Below, in pieces: positions 9,556 through 20,877 of a stretch of DNA of 64,000 nucleotides. The position numbers were made by a program, and so were the translations under genes. This DNA comes from Pseudomonadota bacterium (lineage in GTDB: Bacteria; Pseudomonadota; Alphaproteobacteria; SP197): the NCBI GenBank assembly GCA_039028155.1, contig JBCCIS010000017.1, positions 1 to 64,000 on the forward strand. The letters run 5' to 3'. The notes under the pieces were generated by a model. It saw only the letters and a list, made by a program, of their open reading frames with translations. It was not told where the DNA came from and did not search any database. Each line of letters starts with the position of its first letter. Within the stretch, counting starts at the first letter, position 1.

Positions 9556-9900
9556 TCAGGGGATGACCTGCCATGTGTAGCCGGATGTCGCGCTGAACGA
9601 TCCGTCAGCCTCCATGACATAGGCTTCGCAGGCTTCGCCGGCTTCCTTTGACCACCTGACGCAAACTTCGCCGTCTCGATACTCCCAGGTCCCGCTGTCG
9701 TTCCCGTAGGTCTGGTCGGTGTAAGTCGTTTTCCCATCCGCGGTGTAACACTGTTCGCCGGTGCTTGGACCGGTGTACGCCACGCAGTTACCGACATGCG
9801 TATCGAGAAAGACCTGTTCCGTCATAGGTTCGGCAAATGCCAAGCTGCTTGAAGCGAAGAACAACAGGCCAGCGATTCCCACTCGTCGGATGCTTTGCAT
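9556..9900 (-). CDS. Small exported hypothetical protein
   Basis: The 114-residue product starts at ATG 9898-9900, directly after a strong GGGAGGAAAAAG ribosome-binding site. It has a signal peptide (about residues 1-24, ending AFA). The mature part contains paired cysteines (NCVAY, EQCY, EVCVRW, EACEAY) and a DSGTWEYRDGEVCVRW segment typical of small beta-barrel, lipocalin-like periplasmic proteins. I do not recognise a named family. It converges on the PLP-enzyme gene with about 30 bases between stops and diverges from the ArsR gene. Confidence 0.7.
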   Translation of the reverse strand: MQSIRRVGIAGLLFFASSSLAFAEPMTEQVFLDTHVGNCVAYTGPSTGEQCYTADGKTTYTDQTYGNDSGTWEYRDGEVCVRWSKEAGEACEAYVMEADGSFSATSGYTWQVIP

Positions 9901-10225
9901 CTTTTTCCTCCCTATCCGATCGTTTTGCCAAAGGGTCGGCATGGTGATCGTTATCTGCAGCTATATCGAGACCTGATTCCAGGTGGATCGGCGTCATCGT
10001 CGAGCGGAATGGCCGAGACGAAGGCCACAACCCCAAAGAATCTCCCACCCATACGTTCAACGCGATGGCGGCGACGCTGCCTTCTCATGTTGGCGGCGTT
10101 CCTATGCCGGCCGCCCCAGCCTTGCGTGCAGACGTCCCTTCGTTACCCGCGAGCAACAAACAGCTGTTTTAGGGCTTGCAGCCTACAACACAATCTGTTA
10201 TTCAATGAATCTATTGATTGATTGG
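9901..10225. other. Intergenic region between divergent genes, holding the arsR-family promoter
   Basis: This stretch of about 325 bases separates a leftward small exported protein from the rightward metal-sensor operon. Its right end has a palindrome AAACAGCTGTTT (10158-10169) and the promoter/operator described separately. The left part has no gene I can support; open frames across it look like chance. Confidence 0.5.
10176..10217 (+). promoter_or_regulatory. Predicted promoter and overlapping ArsR/SmtB operator
   Basis: TTGCAG (10176-10181) and TATTCA (10199-10204) are spaced by 17 bases and would make a reasonable sigma-70 promoter. The -10 element overlaps an inverted repeat TCAAT-N6-ATTGA (10202-10206 and 10213-10217), which also contains TTCA-A-TGAA at 10201-10209. 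An AT-rich dyad over the core promoter just before the regulator's own start is the expected place for autorepression by an ArsR/SmtB protein. The site is inferred from position and symmetry only. Confidence 0.45.
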
Positions 10226-10591
10226 ATGACGATGTCGCAATCTCTTGACGATCCGGCATGTGGGCATGGCGCCCATCCCGAGCGCGCCCCTTTCGCGGCT
10301 CCTTCGGACCAGGCTCTGGAGAGTGCGGCGGCCATGCTCAGCGCCGCGGGCGACCCGGCCCGTCTGCGCCTTTTGCTGCGCCTTGCCGAAGGCGAGCGAT
10401 GCGTCAGCGAACTGGCAGAAGCCGAGGGCGACAAGCTTGCGACAATCTCGGCGCGACTCAAGCTGCTGCACACCGCCCGGCTGGTGAAGCGCCGGCGGGA
10501 AGCCAAACACGTTCACTACGCACTGAACGACGACCACGTTCTCCGGCTGGTCCAGAACATCCTCGACTACGCCGCCGAAGACACGCTCTAA
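10226..10591 (+). CDS. ArsR/SmtB-family metal-sensing repressor
   Basis: The 121-residue product is a winged-helix ArsR/SmtB regulator: GDPARLRLLLRLAEGERCVSEL leads into the recognition helix (TISARLKLLHTARLV) and wing (KRRREAKHVHYAL). Compared with SmtB, the DDHVLRLVQNILDYAAE helix keeps Asp, His and Glu of the alpha-5 zinc site, but the second His is Tyr. An N-terminal ACGHGAH segment and the Cys of ERCVSEL could form an alpha-3N-type site. Zinc or a similar divalent metal is the likely signal. Starts at 10205, 10226 and 10232 are possible; 10226 or 10232 leaves the operator outside the coding region. A His-rich protein gene follows 25 bases later. Confidence 0.85.
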   Translation: MTMSQSLDDPACGHGAHPERAPFAAPSDQALESAAAMLSAAGDPARLRLLLRLAEGERCVSELAEAEGDKLATISARLKLLHTARLVKRRREAKHVHYALNDDHVLRLVQNILDYAAEDTL

Positions 10592-10616
10592 TCCCCACAA
10601 CTCAAGGAAAACACCG

Positions 10617-10973
10617 ATGACTTGCACGAACCCGAAGCACGAGAACCACCCGCATGTCCATGGCCCTGGTTGCGGCCACACGGCGGTGCGCCACGGCGAT
10701 CACGTGGACTATCTTCACGATGGCCACCTTCACCATCCCCATGAGGATCACGTGGACGAGCATGTCATCGAGGTATCCGTCACAAACCCCGACCCCTGTG
10801 CGCCCGTTGCAAACGACGGCCTGGGTCATGACCACGACCATGTCCACGGCCCCGGATGCGGACACGAAGCCGTCCCCCATGGCGACCACGTCTGCTATCT
10901 GGTGGACGGCCGCTTGCACCATCCTCATGACGGCCATTGCGACGACCATGGGTCGCTGGAGGTCGTTGGCTAA
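10617..10973 (+). CDS. Histidine-rich metal-binding protein with internal duplication
   Basis: The 118-residue product contains 26 histidines and 6 cysteines and has no signal peptide or membrane segment. It is an internal duplication: HVHGPGCGHTAVRHGDHVDY near residues 13-32 recurs as HVHGPGCGHEAVPHGDHVCY near 75-94, each followed by an LHHPH-rich tail. This must bind transition metals such as zinc, nickel or copper, probably in the cytoplasm. It follows the ArsR/SmtB gene by 25 bases with its own ribosome-binding site (AAGGAAAA), so the two probably form one operon in which metal excess relieves repression. Storage, buffering or a chaperone role are all possible; I do not know a named function. 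Confidence 0.8.
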   Translation: MTCTNPKHENHPHVHGPGCGHTAVRHGDHVDYLHDGHLHHPHEDHVDEHVIEVSVTNPDPCAPVANDGLGHDHDHVHGPGCGHEAVPHGDHVCYLVDGRLHHPHDGHCDDHGSLEVVG

Positions 10974-16945: not shown

Positions 16946-17278
16946 CTAGTCCGCCATCATGTTGCGGGTTTCCGGCGGCAGCGAGATGGTCAGGCCGTCG
17001 AGTTCCTCTGTCACGATGATCTGACAGCCAAGCCGGGACGTTTTGGTCAGGCCAAAGGCGAGGTCGAGCATATCCTCCTCGTCCTCAGTCGGCTCCTCAA
17101 GCCGGTCGAAATCGTCGTCGTCGACAATCACATGACAGGTCGAACACGCCAGAGAACCCTCACACGCCCCTTCAATGTCGATGTTGTTGCGGTGCGCGAG
17201 TTCCAGAAGCGAAAGGCCCACCGGGGCATCGACCTCGATCCGGGTGCCGTCCCGGTCAATAAACGTCACTTTGGGCAT
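16946..17278 (-). CDS. fdx: Isc-type [2Fe-2S] ferredoxin
   Basis: The 110-residue product is an adrenodoxin-like ferredoxin. The cluster ligands appear as [10 protein letters not shown] near residues 39-48 and the fourth Cys in SRLGCQIIV near residue 86. Family members (Fdx) pass electrons during iron-sulfur cluster assembly. It follows iscS by about 70 bases on the same strand and is the last gene of the cysE-iscR-desulfurase cluster, which supports that role. Confidence 0.9.
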
Positions 17279-17335
17279 GTACTCTCCGTCTTTGCGGCGC
17301 GCTTTTAATCCGAAGCGGCTGTTCGCGTCCAGCTT

Positions 17336-17349
17336 TAGAGCGGATCGCG
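17336..17349. repeat. Short dispersed repeat, copy at iscS 3' end
   Basis: TAGAGCGGATCGCG lies immediately downstream of the iscS stop (on the opposite strand to the gene). The same 14-base motif, with one difference, begins hairpin elements at 36270 (minus strand) and 57288. Only the half-element is visible here. Confidence 0.5.
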
Positions 17350-17350
17350 G

Positions 17351-18538
17351 TCACGCCGCCGAGGAGTGCTGACGCAGCCTTAAGACCGCCTCGGCGAGGT
17401 GGTCGAGGGCGAATTCAACCTCGGCCTCGGTGGTGAAACGACCCAGGCCGATGCGGATGGAACTGCCGGCTCGATCATCATCCAGGCCCAGCGCGCGCAG
17501 AACATAGGAGGGCTCGACAACGGCCGAGGTACAGGCCGAACCCGTCGAAACCGCCAGATCCGGCATACCTTCGATGAGGTCGAGCGCCTTGATGCCGTCG
17601 AAGGCGATGTTGAGGTTGGCCGCCAAGCGCGCATCCGGGTCGCCGTTCAAGGCGACGTCGGGAATGCGCTTCTGAATGCCCTGCCAAAGGTGGTCGCGCA
17701 GCGCGCCTAGACGCACGCCCTCCTCGCCCATCTCCCGCTTGGCGATCGCGGCGGCCTCGCCCAGACCGACGACGAGCGGGGTCGGCACCGTCCCGGATCG
17801 GATCGTGCGCTCCTGCCCGCCACCAGAAAACAGCGGCTCAAGACGGGCCCGCGGCCGCCGTCGCATATAGAGCACGCCAATGCCCTTGGGACCGTAAACC
17901 TTGTGACCGGAGATGCTCATCAGGTCGATCGTCATCGCCTCGACATCTATCGGCGTCTTGCCTATCGCCTGGGCAGCATCGGTGTGGAACAGCGCGCCGC
18001 GTTCGCGGGCCAGCGCACCGATCTCCGCGACAGGCTGCAGCACGCCGATCTCGTTGTTCGCGGCCATGATAGAAACCAGCACCGTGCGGTCGTCGACGGC
18101 GGCGTCCAGCGCCGCGCGATCGACCAGTCCGTTCGCGCCGACCGGCAGGAAGACGGTCTCGAACCCTTCGGCCTCCATCGCCTTGACGCTCTCGATGACA
18201 CACTTGTGCTCGGTAACGACGGAGACAATCTTGTCGCGCTTGTTGCGGTGGGCGCGTTCAAAGCGCGCAGCGCCCTTGATCGCCAGGTTGTTCGATTCCG
18301 TCGCACCGGACGTAAAGACGATCTCACGCGGGTCCGCGTTGACCAAGTCGGCGATCTTGCCGCGCGCCTCCTCCACAGCTTCGGCGGACTCGCGGCCCAG
18401 CTCATGGCTGGTCGAATGGGGGTTGCCGAATTTTTCGGTGAACCACGGCAACATGGCTTCCAGCGCGCGCGGGTCGACCGGCGTCGTCGACTGATAGTCC
18501 AGATAGACCGGGGTCTTGATGTTGCGCTCTGTCGTCAT
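17351..18538 (-). CDS. iscS: Cysteine desulfurase, IscS type
   Basis: The 395-residue PLP enzyme converts cysteine to alanine and delivers persulfide sulfur for Fe-S clusters and tRNA thiolation. Motifs: TSGATESNN near residue 76, TEHKCV, SGHKVYGPKG with the PLP lysine near residue 210, and the active-site loop VSTGSACTSAVVEPSYVL near 335 with the catalytic Cys. It is the second desulfurase in tandem, with 10 bases to the preceding one, between iscR and fdx. The usual neighbour iscU is absent. Confidence 0.92.
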   Translation of the reverse strand: MTTERNIKTPVYLDYQSTTPVDPRALEAMLPWFTEKFGNPHSTSHELGRESAEAVEEARGKIADLVNADPREIVFTSGATESNNLAIKGAARFERAHRNKRDKIVSVVTEHKCVIESVKAMEAEGFETVFLPVGANGLVDRAALDAAVDDRTVLVSIMAANNEIGVLQPVAEIGALARERGALFHTDAAQAIGKTPIDVEAMTIDLMSISGHKVYGPKGIGVLYMRRRPRARLEPLFSGGGQERTIRSGTVPTPLVVGLGEAAAIAKREMGEEGVRLGALRDHLWQGIQKRIPDVALNGDPDARLAANLNIAFDGIKALDLIEGMPDLAVSTGSACTSAVVEPSYVLRALGLDDDRAGSSIRIGLGRFTTEAEVEFALDHLAEAVLRLRQHSSAA

Positions 18539-18548
18539 GCCCTACCTA

Positions 18549-19652
18549 TTACGCCGCATGCTGGCCGCCGCCAAGTCGGCGTGCGATATCCGTCCACGCG
18601 GCCAGGAAAACGTCGATGTCGTGGTCGGTGGTCGCCCAGCCATGGCTTATACGCACGGTGTTGGCGGCAATATCGTCGCGTCCCATGGCGGTCAAGACAT
18701 GTGATGGTCCGACCTTGCCCGATGAACAGGCGGAACCGGCACTCACCGCCACACCGGCCAGGTCGAAGGCCATGACCAGGGTCTCCGCGCCGACGCCGGG
18801 CATGGCGAGCGCGCTGGTGTTGGCCAGACGATCAACATCGCCAGCAACGACGGCAGCCGATGTCGTCGAAGCCATCACATTAGCTTCCAGGCGGTCGCGA
18901 CGGGAACGCCACGACGTCACGTCGTCATCGAGACAGGCGCGCGCGGCGGCACCGAAACCGGCGATCGCCGACAGCGGTTCGGTTCCCGCGCGAAGCCCGA
19001 GCTCCTGACCGCCGCCACGCATCAGCGGGCGAAGTTGCAACTCGCGCTTGCGTACCAGCGCGCCGGCGCCGGCTGGTCCACCGAGCTTGTGACCGGACAG
19101 GGTCATGAGATCCGCGTCGATGGCGTCGAGATCAAGTTTGCCCGCCGCCTGGACCGTATCGACATGGAGCACGGCATCGTGGCGATGGGCGACGTTGGCG
19201 ATATCGGCGAGCGGCTGAATGACACCGGTCTCGTTGTTGGCGGCCATGACGGAGAGAAGGGCACGCCCCTGCCCCGCTGCCAGAAGCGTATCCAATGCAT
19301 CGGGATCGACGCGGCCCGCGTCATCGACCGGTATGATCGTCGGGTTGTCGCACGCCTTCAGGACCGACGGGTGTTCGACCGCCGAGATCAGAACACGCTC
19401 GACCGCCAGACCATTCAGCGCCATCTGGTTGGCTTCCGTACCGCCAGACGTGAACGTCACCAGGCGCGGCGCCACACCGGCCAGCGCCGCGACCTCTTCG
19501 CGCGCGGTTTCCAAGATCGAGCGGGCTGCCCGACCGAAACCGTGCACCGACGACGGATTGCCGGTGACCTCGAGCGAGGCCAACACAGCATCGCGTGCCT
19601 CATGCCGCAATGGCGCGGTGGCGTTGTAATCGAGGTAAACGCTGGGAGTCAT
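18549..19652 (-). CDS. Cysteine desulfurase, NifS/IscS-like (second copy)
   Basis: The 367-residue product is a second aminotransferase-V cysteine desulfurase, clearly divergent from the neighbouring IscS. It has TSGGTEANQ near residue 68, VEHPSV, SGHKLGGPAGAGAL with the PLP lysine near residue 195, and the catalytic loop VSAGSACSSGKVGPSHVL. Alphaproteobacterial suf loci often carry such an extra desulfurase gene after iscR. It starts 18 bases after the iscR stop and ends 10 bases before iscS, so all three are probably one transcript. The division of labour between the two enzymes is unknown. Confidence 0.88.
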   Translation of the reverse strand: MTPSVYLDYNATAPLRHEARDAVLASLEVTGNPSSVHGFGRAARSILETAREEVAALAGVAPRLVTFTSGGTEANQMALNGLAVERVLISAVEHPSVLKACDNPTIIPVDDAGRVDPDALDTLLAAGQGRALLSVMAANNETGVIQPLADIANVAHRHDAVLHVDTVQAAGKLDLDAIDADLMTLSGHKLGGPAGAGALVRKRELQLRPLMRGGGQELGLRAGTEPLSAIAGFGAAARACLDDDVTSWRSRRDRLEANVMASTTSAAVVAGDVDRLANTSALAMPGVGAETLVMAFDLAGVAVSAGSACSSGKVGPSHVLTAMGRDDIAANTVRISHGWATTDHDIDVFLAAWTDIARRLGGGQHAA

Positions 19653-19670
19653 GGAACCGGCAGCTGCACC

Positions 19671-20135
19671 CTATTCGGCTGCGACAATATCCTCGTCGAA
19701 CTCGGGCACGGCGCGGCACACCCGGCGCTCGCAGATATCCTCCAGCGTCACCGACGACATGAAGTCGCGGATGTGATTGCCGAGCTCTTCCCACAGGTCA
19801 TGGGTCAGGCAACGGCTCTTGTCTTTCATGCAGCCTTGTCCCGGCTCCGCATCACCCTTGCACCGGGTCACCCTGATCGGCTCGTCGACCGCGTCGATGA
19901 TCGAGGCGACGCAGATCTCGCTCTTCGGATTGGCCAACAGGTAACCGCCGCCCGGGCCGCGCACGCTAGCGACCAGTTCGGCGCGGCGCAGTTTGCCGAA
20001 AAGCTGTTCGAGATAGCTCAGCGAGATCTCCTGGCGCGCTGCGATCTCGGCAAGCGACACCGGGCGTCCATCACTGTTGAAGGCCAAGTCGACCATGGCC
20101 ATCACCGCATAACGACCTTTGCTGCTGAGTTTCAT
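19671..20135 (-). CDS. iscR: Rrf2-family Fe-S-sensing regulator IscR
   Basis: The 154-residue product begins MKLSSKGRYAVMAMVDLA, the standard IscR start, with a winged helix (EISLSYLEQLFGKLRRAELV) and GPGGGY turn. The presumed [2Fe-2S] ligands are three cysteines and a histidine in CKGDAEPGQGC and SRCLTHDLW, near residues 93-113. IscR represses Fe-S genes when its cluster is intact. I set the start at ATG 20133-20135; the open frame runs 43 codons further into the cysE tail and shows no conserved sequence there. It is preceded by cysE and followed by two desulfurases. Confidence 0.92.
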   Translation of the reverse strand: MKLSSKGRYAVMAMVDLAFNSDGRPVSLAEIAARQEISLSYLEQLFGKLRRAELVASVRGPGGGYLLANPKSEICVASIIDAVDEPIRVTRCKGDAEPGQGCMKDKSRCLTHDLWEELGNHIRDFMSSVTLEDICERRVCRAVPEFDEDIVAAE

Positions 20136-20157
20136 GGCGGCGTCACGCTCCCTTGCG

Positions 20158-20877
20158 TTAGATGTCTCGACGTTCCTCGTCGATCTCCAGATCGTTCGGT
20201 TCAACAACGTCGATACCGTCGACGCGGTTGGTTTCCAGTTCCTTGATACGCGCTTCAAGAACACTGACGTGATTGAGCAGTCCGTTGATCGCCTTGCTGA
20301 CCGGGTCCGGCATGTCTTGCGCCGAAGCGCCGTAGGCTGCGAAGTGCGGCTCGGACTCCTTGTTGGCCTGATCGACCGCGCGACCAGGTATGCCGACGAT
20401 CGTCACGCCCGGCGGCACATCGCGCACGACGACCGCATTGGAACCGACAAGCGCGCCGTCACCGACCGTGATCGGGCCAAGGATTTTTGCGCCGGCACCA
20501 ACAACGACATCATTGCCCAACGTCGGATGCCGCTTTCCCTTTTGCCAAGTGGTTCCACCAAGGGTCACACCGTGGTAGAGCGTCACGTCGTCACCGACTT
20601 CGGCCGTCTCGCCAATAACAACGCCCATGCCATGATCGATAAAGAAACGTTTACCGATCTTCGCGCCGGGGTGAATCTCGATTCCAGTCAAGACGCGACC
20701 GACATGAGACATAAGTCGTCCGATCAGCTTCAGATGCTTAAGCCAAAGCCAATGAGAAAAACGATAAAAGAGAATGGCGTGAAAGCCGGGGTAGCACAGG
20801 ACGACTTCAAGCCGGGTCCTGACAGCCGGGTCGCGGCCGAATACGGAGTCGATTTCCTCGCGAAGCGCCTTCAGCAT
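20158..20877 (-). CDS. cysE: Serine O-acetyltransferase
   Basis: The 239-residue product makes O-acetyl-L-serine from serine and acetyl-CoA, the first step of cysteine synthesis. It has an N-terminal helical domain and a left-handed beta-helix of hexapeptide repeats: [40 protein letters not shown] and [15 protein letters not shown], with the catalytic Asp-His in FIDHG. The C-terminus (residues 190-239) extends as a coiled-coil-like tail ([15 protein letters not shown]). It is the first gene of the cysE-iscR-desulfurase-fdx series, coupling cysteine supply to its use as a sulfur donor. Confidence 0.95.

Follow-up and report, generated by a model that had tools for sequence, protein, structure and literature searches.

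In the SmtB/SmtA system of Synechococcus PCC 7942 and the BxmR/BmtA system of Oscillatoria brevis, the gene for an SmtB-type repressor stands beside that for a small metal-sequestering protein, a Cys-rich metallothionein, and the promoter contains an inverted repeat. SmtB-type repressors normally release DNA in metal surplus. Other zinc sensors of the SmtB/ArsR family, such as those of CzrA/CzrB, ZiaR/ZiaA and AztR/AztA, use alpha-5 and/or alpha-3N sites and control efflux pumps. In Anabaena PCC 7120, the metallothionein gene nmtA is repressed by AzuR, whose gene belongs to the znuABC locus (PMC8790569), and the alpha-5 motif D-x-H-x10-H-x2-E is the zinc signature of SmtB and AzuR (PMC8790569). 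How most bacteria that lack metallothioneins buffer their cytosolic zinc is poorly understood, and the His-rich protein family described here is a concrete, testable candidate for this function.

Layout of the locus

The window, that is, the whole 64-kb stretch of DNA analysed here, contains an ArsR/SmtB-family gene followed after a gap of 25 nt by a gene encoding a His-rich protein. The following features were identified.

10176–10181, plus strand: −35-like hexamer TTGCAG, read from the sequence
10199–10204, plus strand: −10-like hexamer TATTCA, 17-nt spacer from TTGCAG, overlapping the left operator arm
10200–10219, plus strand: putative operator ATTCAATGAATCTATTGATT, with TCAAT-N6-ATTGA at 10202–10217; scores 11/12 against the consensus ATTCnATn6ATnGAAT
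10226–10591, plus strand: open reading frame for the ArsR/SmtB-family repressor, 121 aa; alternative start at 10232
10604–10611, plus strand: ribosome-binding-site-like sequence AAGGAAAA ahead of the His-rich gene
10617–10973, plus strand: open reading frame for the His-rich protein, 118 aa, 26 His, 6 Cys
10653–10778, plus strand: beta module 1 of the His-rich protein, residues 13–54 (repeat alignment and AlphaFold)
10839–10964, plus strand: beta module 2 of the His-rich protein, residues 75–116 (repeat alignment and AlphaFold)

The promoter, dyad, repressor gene, 25-nt gap and duplicated 118-residue protein had all been listed in a first-pass annotation of this stretch, and each agrees with the sequence and its translation. 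The two modules of the His-rich protein align with 28 identities in 42 positions. The ATG at 10232 (MSQSLDD) may represent the better-conserved start of the repressor. A hexamer beginning with TTG and located 16–18 nt upstream of the −10 element is retained in related loci L009, L010, L011, L013–L015, L017, L018, L027, L035, L054 and L058. A 12-bp palindrome at 10158–10169 was set aside, as the sister species does not conserve it.

On the minus strand, a small secreted-looking protein with no confident Pfam match is encoded next to the unit (9556–9942). Elsewhere on the minus strand (16946–20877), genes encoding a ferredoxin-like protein, two adjacent cysteine-desulfurase-like proteins, an Rrf2/IscR-like regulator and a CysE-like protein lie in a row; judged by their translations only, they appear to form an ISC-type locus with tandem desulfurase paralogues.

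The repressor, its predicted metal sites and its putative operator

The repressor matches the ArsR winged-helix HTH model PF01022 (HTH_5) with 33.1 bits (cut-off 22) and the NCBIfam metalloregulator model NF033788 (HTH_metalloreg) with 70.8 bits (cut-off 55), and its best match in the PDB is Synechococcus SmtB (E 3.8e-17). Matches to the BigR and TsoR models are weaker, and the non-metal models score far below their cut-offs. The regulator can thus be assigned by sequence to the ArsR/SmtB family, with an alpha-5 site that appears incomplete in the window's species. Nearly all partner repressors keep the D-x-H-x10-H-x2-E motif. The corresponding positions in the window's repressor are D102, H104, Y115 and E118, so that, as previously noted, the site is partial and its second histidine is a tyrosine. 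This histidine is present in 31 of the 32 aligned partner repressors, including that of a sister species in which the His-rich protein shares 92% identity with the window's. Because only the window's repressor carries tyrosine at this position, the substitution appears to be recent and local to the window; it corresponds to a single C-to-T change from His, seen in one assembly, and was rejected as a hallmark of the system. The repressor also contains an alpha-3N-like feature composed of C12, H14 and C59. Cys59 is found in 17 of the 32 aligned partners, and the combination of N-terminal Cys/His residues with Cys59 is confined to one subgroup. A modified metal preference, suggested earlier on the basis of the tyrosine and an N-terminal ACGHGAH, was not supported as a general property of the system.

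Most linked repressors are preceded by a copy of the dyad ATTCnATn6ATnGAAT whose left arm overlaps the −10 element; sequence comparison thus places the conserved dyad across the −10 element of the repressor's own promoter. Scores of at least 11/12 were obtained for 17 of 32 ArsR-linked upstream regions vs 3 of 1874 random windows taken from the same loci, and at p≤0.01 none of the 45 loci lacking ArsR contained the dyad. Approximately one-third of the ArsR-linked loci have no recognisable copy. In the window's genome, matches with at most one mismatch were limited to the unit's own site, besides its reverse reading and an overlapping match, which suggests that the repressor controls its own unit only; no further operator site indicative of a wider regulon was found at this threshold. 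Tracking with linked repressors, missing where these are absent and single in the genome, the dyad in all likelihood represents a real operator. Together with the PDB match to SmtB, its conservation supports the initial reading of an autoregulated unit with an SmtB-type regulator.

The His-rich family and its genomic settings

A genome scan for the His-rich family returned at least 594 pattern matches, of which at least 571 encode relatives. The best 80 of these, that is, the nearest relatives and not a random sample, span Alpha-, Beta- and Gammaproteobacteria, Campylobacterota, Planctomycetota, Myxococcota, Cyanobacteriota, Actinomycetota and Gemmatimonadota. In even samples, the family was present in 7 of 398 genomes of the phylum and 5 of 385 of the class (the window's own genome included in both), and in 12 of 369 genomes of a second class; the family is therefore widespread but sparse. 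Many isolates encode it, including members of Bradyrhizobium, Burkholderia, Pseudomonas, Acinetobacter and Aureimonas. This distribution across phyla, the recurrence of the dyad across species and the NCBIfam score above cut-off indicate that the arrangement is more than chance. No paralogue of the His-rich protein was found in the window's genome.

Family alignments contain 32–41 invariant columns; the 32 obtained with 76 sequences include Gly, Asp, Asn, Pro, Tyr, Leu and Val in addition to His and Cys. AlphaFold predicted the structure with a pLDDT of 80 and pTM of 0.73 from 31 sequences, and with a pLDDT of 88.4 and pTM of 0.81 from 76 sequences, in the latter case as two modules, each made up of four short strands. 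The conserved non-His columns and the confidently predicted fold disfavour a disordered His tail. The database search proposed for the duplicated module was carried out: Pfam and NCBIfam gave no match to the protein and nothing plausible from 31 aligned relatives, the PDB contained no sequence relative, and none of the solved structures resembled the predicted fold. The one significant structural match, at E 4.9e-4 and with 36% identity across 106 columns, was a giant-virus protein (BFVD A0A5K0U9W0, Yasminevirus). Its annotation as a cation efflux (CDF) protein suggests that the module may also exist in fusion with a transporter. Our literature search revealed no published name for the family, although most subscription journals lay outside it and a name may have been missed; it gave nothing specific for the motif or for ArsR- or Zur-linked His-rich proteins, and a term search of Caulobacter and Paracoccus Zur-regulon papers found no mention of the protein. 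The family is thus apparently unnamed and undescribed.

Several distant homologues (L093/L099 in G174, L094 in G420) have signal-peptide-like N-termini, and exported versions of the protein may therefore exist. Two His-rich genes lie on proviral contigs (L150, L151): one, flanked by phage-like genes and a RelA/SpoT-like gene, encodes both modules, and the other, close to phage genes where its contig ends, is a fragment with a single module. A phage-gene origin was dismissed; phage records contained no match.

The first-pass annotation had proposed tabulating ArsR adjacency. Among the best 80 of at least 571 relatives, 31 carry a same-strand ArsR gene, either immediately upstream or joined to the His-rich gene in one reading frame. 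The family mostly occurs without an adjacent ArsR gene (49 of the nearest 80 and 14 of 21 even-sample occurrences), formally the outcome that the first-pass annotation had named as speaking against its reading, and strict linkage was ruled out. However, the pairing itself stood: ArsR is linked at 7 of 21 places in the even samples, the window's genome excluded, and since the window's 5.3-Mb genome has only 5 ArsR-like matches, linkage of approximately one-third is far above chance. Single continuous ArsR-His reading frames are present in Xanthobacteraceae 501b (L025), Aureimonas ureilytica DSM 18598 (L058) and locus L131, and in Xanthobacter (L040) both genes share one frame with a single TGA between them, which illustrates how genes of this kind can become fused. 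Similarity matrices of repressors and His-rich proteins are correlated (r 0.63, 0 of 2000 permutations). The one-third linkage, three fusions and co-inheritance together establish the pairing as real and as one among several regulatory wirings. On the tree of the 80 nearest His-rich proteins, which is based on 119 columns and weakly resolved, linkage changes many times, at least four of them on well-supported branches. Two Oceanicaulis loci with close His-rich proteins (L012, L013), one with ArsR and the operator and the other with a Zur-like palindrome and no ArsR, represent an apparent regulator swap.

Other family copies adjoin znuABC, zur, COG0523 or CDF genes. Within 4 kb of the best 80 of at least 571 relatives, we identified ABC-3 permeases (13), COG0523 GTPases (12), Fur-family regulators (11), TonB receptors (11), ZnuA (9), CDF (4) and P1B ATPases (3), a count for which the background is known from the window's genome alone (4 ZnuA, 2 CDF). 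In Bradyrhizobium and Halomonadaceae the His-rich locus is divergent from znu genes. Zur-like boxes precede 10 of 45 unlinked and 7 of 31 linked loci (p≤0.01, base shuffling), and two of these 17 are perfect 18-bp palindromes (GTTATGTTATAACATAAC). The Bradyrhizobium box is located between the divergent znu genes and arsR and may therefore serve znu. Based on the zinc-gene neighbours and Zur-like boxes, zinc is the likely metal of the unit. The window's 64 kb contain no match to ABC-3, ZnuA, CDF, P1B-ATPase, COG0523, Fur or TonB-receptor families. The first-pass argument that a missing transporter favours buffering over efflux accordingly fits the window; it is weakened by the relatives adjoining znuABC and zur. 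In Acinetobacter rathckeae (L062, 15–4354), a urease gene cluster has the His-rich gene immediately after ureG, a position that makes nickel possible in that lineage.

Candidate functions and comparison with known systems

We consider it reasonably probable that the unit is a self-regulated two-gene system combining a zinc sensor with a cytosolic zinc buffer. A dimeric SmtB-type repressor would bind the ATTC-type dyad at the −10 element of the promoter that both genes share, preventing transcription. When cytosolic zinc (possibly also nickel, cobalt or cadmium) rises, metal would occupy the alpha-5 site and DNA would be released; in this subgroup, the N-terminal Cys/His residues and Cys59 would provide an extra metal site. 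Repressor and His-rich protein would then be made together, and the latter, a predicted pair of folded beta modules with many invariant His and Cys residues, would bind several zinc ions and lower free zinc, upon which the repressor would rebind; the zinc could also be passed on. The buffer reading is supported by the conservation of the operator with ArsR, the alpha-5 motif, the linkage, the fusions and the correlated matrices, as well as by the zinc-uptake neighbourhoods, Zur-like boxes, AlphaFold fold, viral CDF match and azuR precedent. Against it stand the loss of the second alpha-5 histidine in the window's own repressor, the lack of an ArsR neighbour in most family members and the position of L062 after ureG, with nickel a possible metal. 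The Zur-like boxes of several members also count against it, since they would imply expression in zinc starvation, not surplus.

These Zur-wired copies suggest that, in other lineages, the protein acts as a chaperone or scavenger. Extended to the family, this alternative holds that the His-rich protein serves import under scarcity, carrying zinc from ZnuABC to clients such as COG0523 GTPases, with the ArsR wiring secondary. The import-biased neighbours of the best 80 of at least 571 relatives (ZnuA, ZnuB, Zur, COG0523 and TonB receptor vs 4 CDF and 3 P1B), the upstream boxes and the divergent znu genes of Bradyrhizobium and Halomonadaceae are in line with it; yet an SmtB-type repressor usually leaves DNA in metal surplus, and neither a Zur box at the unit nor an import gene anywhere in the window's 64 kb was detected. 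We regard this explanation as rather unlikely. A unit for nickel, cobalt or cadmium, in which Tyr and the Cys-containing N-terminus retune the sensor and the His-rich protein handles that metal, would draw on the window-specific Y115 together with C12/H14/C59, on the urease-linked member and on the Cd/Pb preference of alpha-3N sites (PMC8790569). With Tyr limited to one assembly and one nucleotide change from His, a sister species that keeps His and most contexts pointing to zinc, we find such a unit improbable. ArsR-family members with non-metal effectors are known, among them BigR and RexT, and the window's repressor has the weaker BigR and TsoR matches described above. Even so, the conserved alpha-5 metal site, the low scores of the non-metal models and the repeated fusion to a His/Cys-rich partner make it very hard to credit that the repressor senses a signal such as reactive sulfur species or peroxide and that the pairing is incidental.

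A single protein holding labile zinc could fill either role, buffer or chaperone. We tentatively propose, with some doubt, that these undescribed, folded and duplicated His/Cys zinc proteins constitute a portable cytosolic zinc buffer-chaperone found across bacteria, which has repeatedly come under Zur for starvation or under an SmtB-type sensor for surplus, and that some lineages fuse sensor and buffer into a polypeptide that would report on and titrate its own ligand. Such ArsR-His fusions would be an unusual metal-sensor architecture.

Among known zinc-binding proteins, the histidine-triad domains of Pht proteins are small zinc folds and carry an HGDH-type motif. Pht structures 2cs7 and 6csl were among the non-significant Foldseek matches (E 3–9), and homology beyond the motif was not supported (no Pht Pfam match at E≤10, no PDB sequence match, VIA Z<2); unlike the proposed cytosolic buffer, Pht proteins are exported streptococcal proteins. 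An SmtA/BmtA-type metallothionein, short and dominated by Cys, was rejected given 26 His and 6 Cys in 118 residues. The efflux pumps targeted by CzrA, ZiaR and AztR have no counterpart in the window. AzuR/NmtA resembles the Bradyrhizobium copies in combining an alpha-5 SmtB-type repressor, a znuABC locus and a metal-binding target, whereas nmtA lies elsewhere in its genome and encodes a metallothionein, unlike the His-rich partner. The putative operator, with its consensus ATTCnATn6ATnGAAT, is unlike the 12-2-12 repeat of SmtB/SmtA, BxmR/BmtA and AzuR/NmtA (PMC8790569). The window's unit shares with SmtB/SmtA and BxmR/BmtA the adjacency of repressor and metal-sequestering candidate and the inverted repeat in the promoter; it is distinguished from both by its gene order, with the repressor first and co-directional, and by a partner that is a His-rich, mostly beta, two-module protein in place of a metallothionein.
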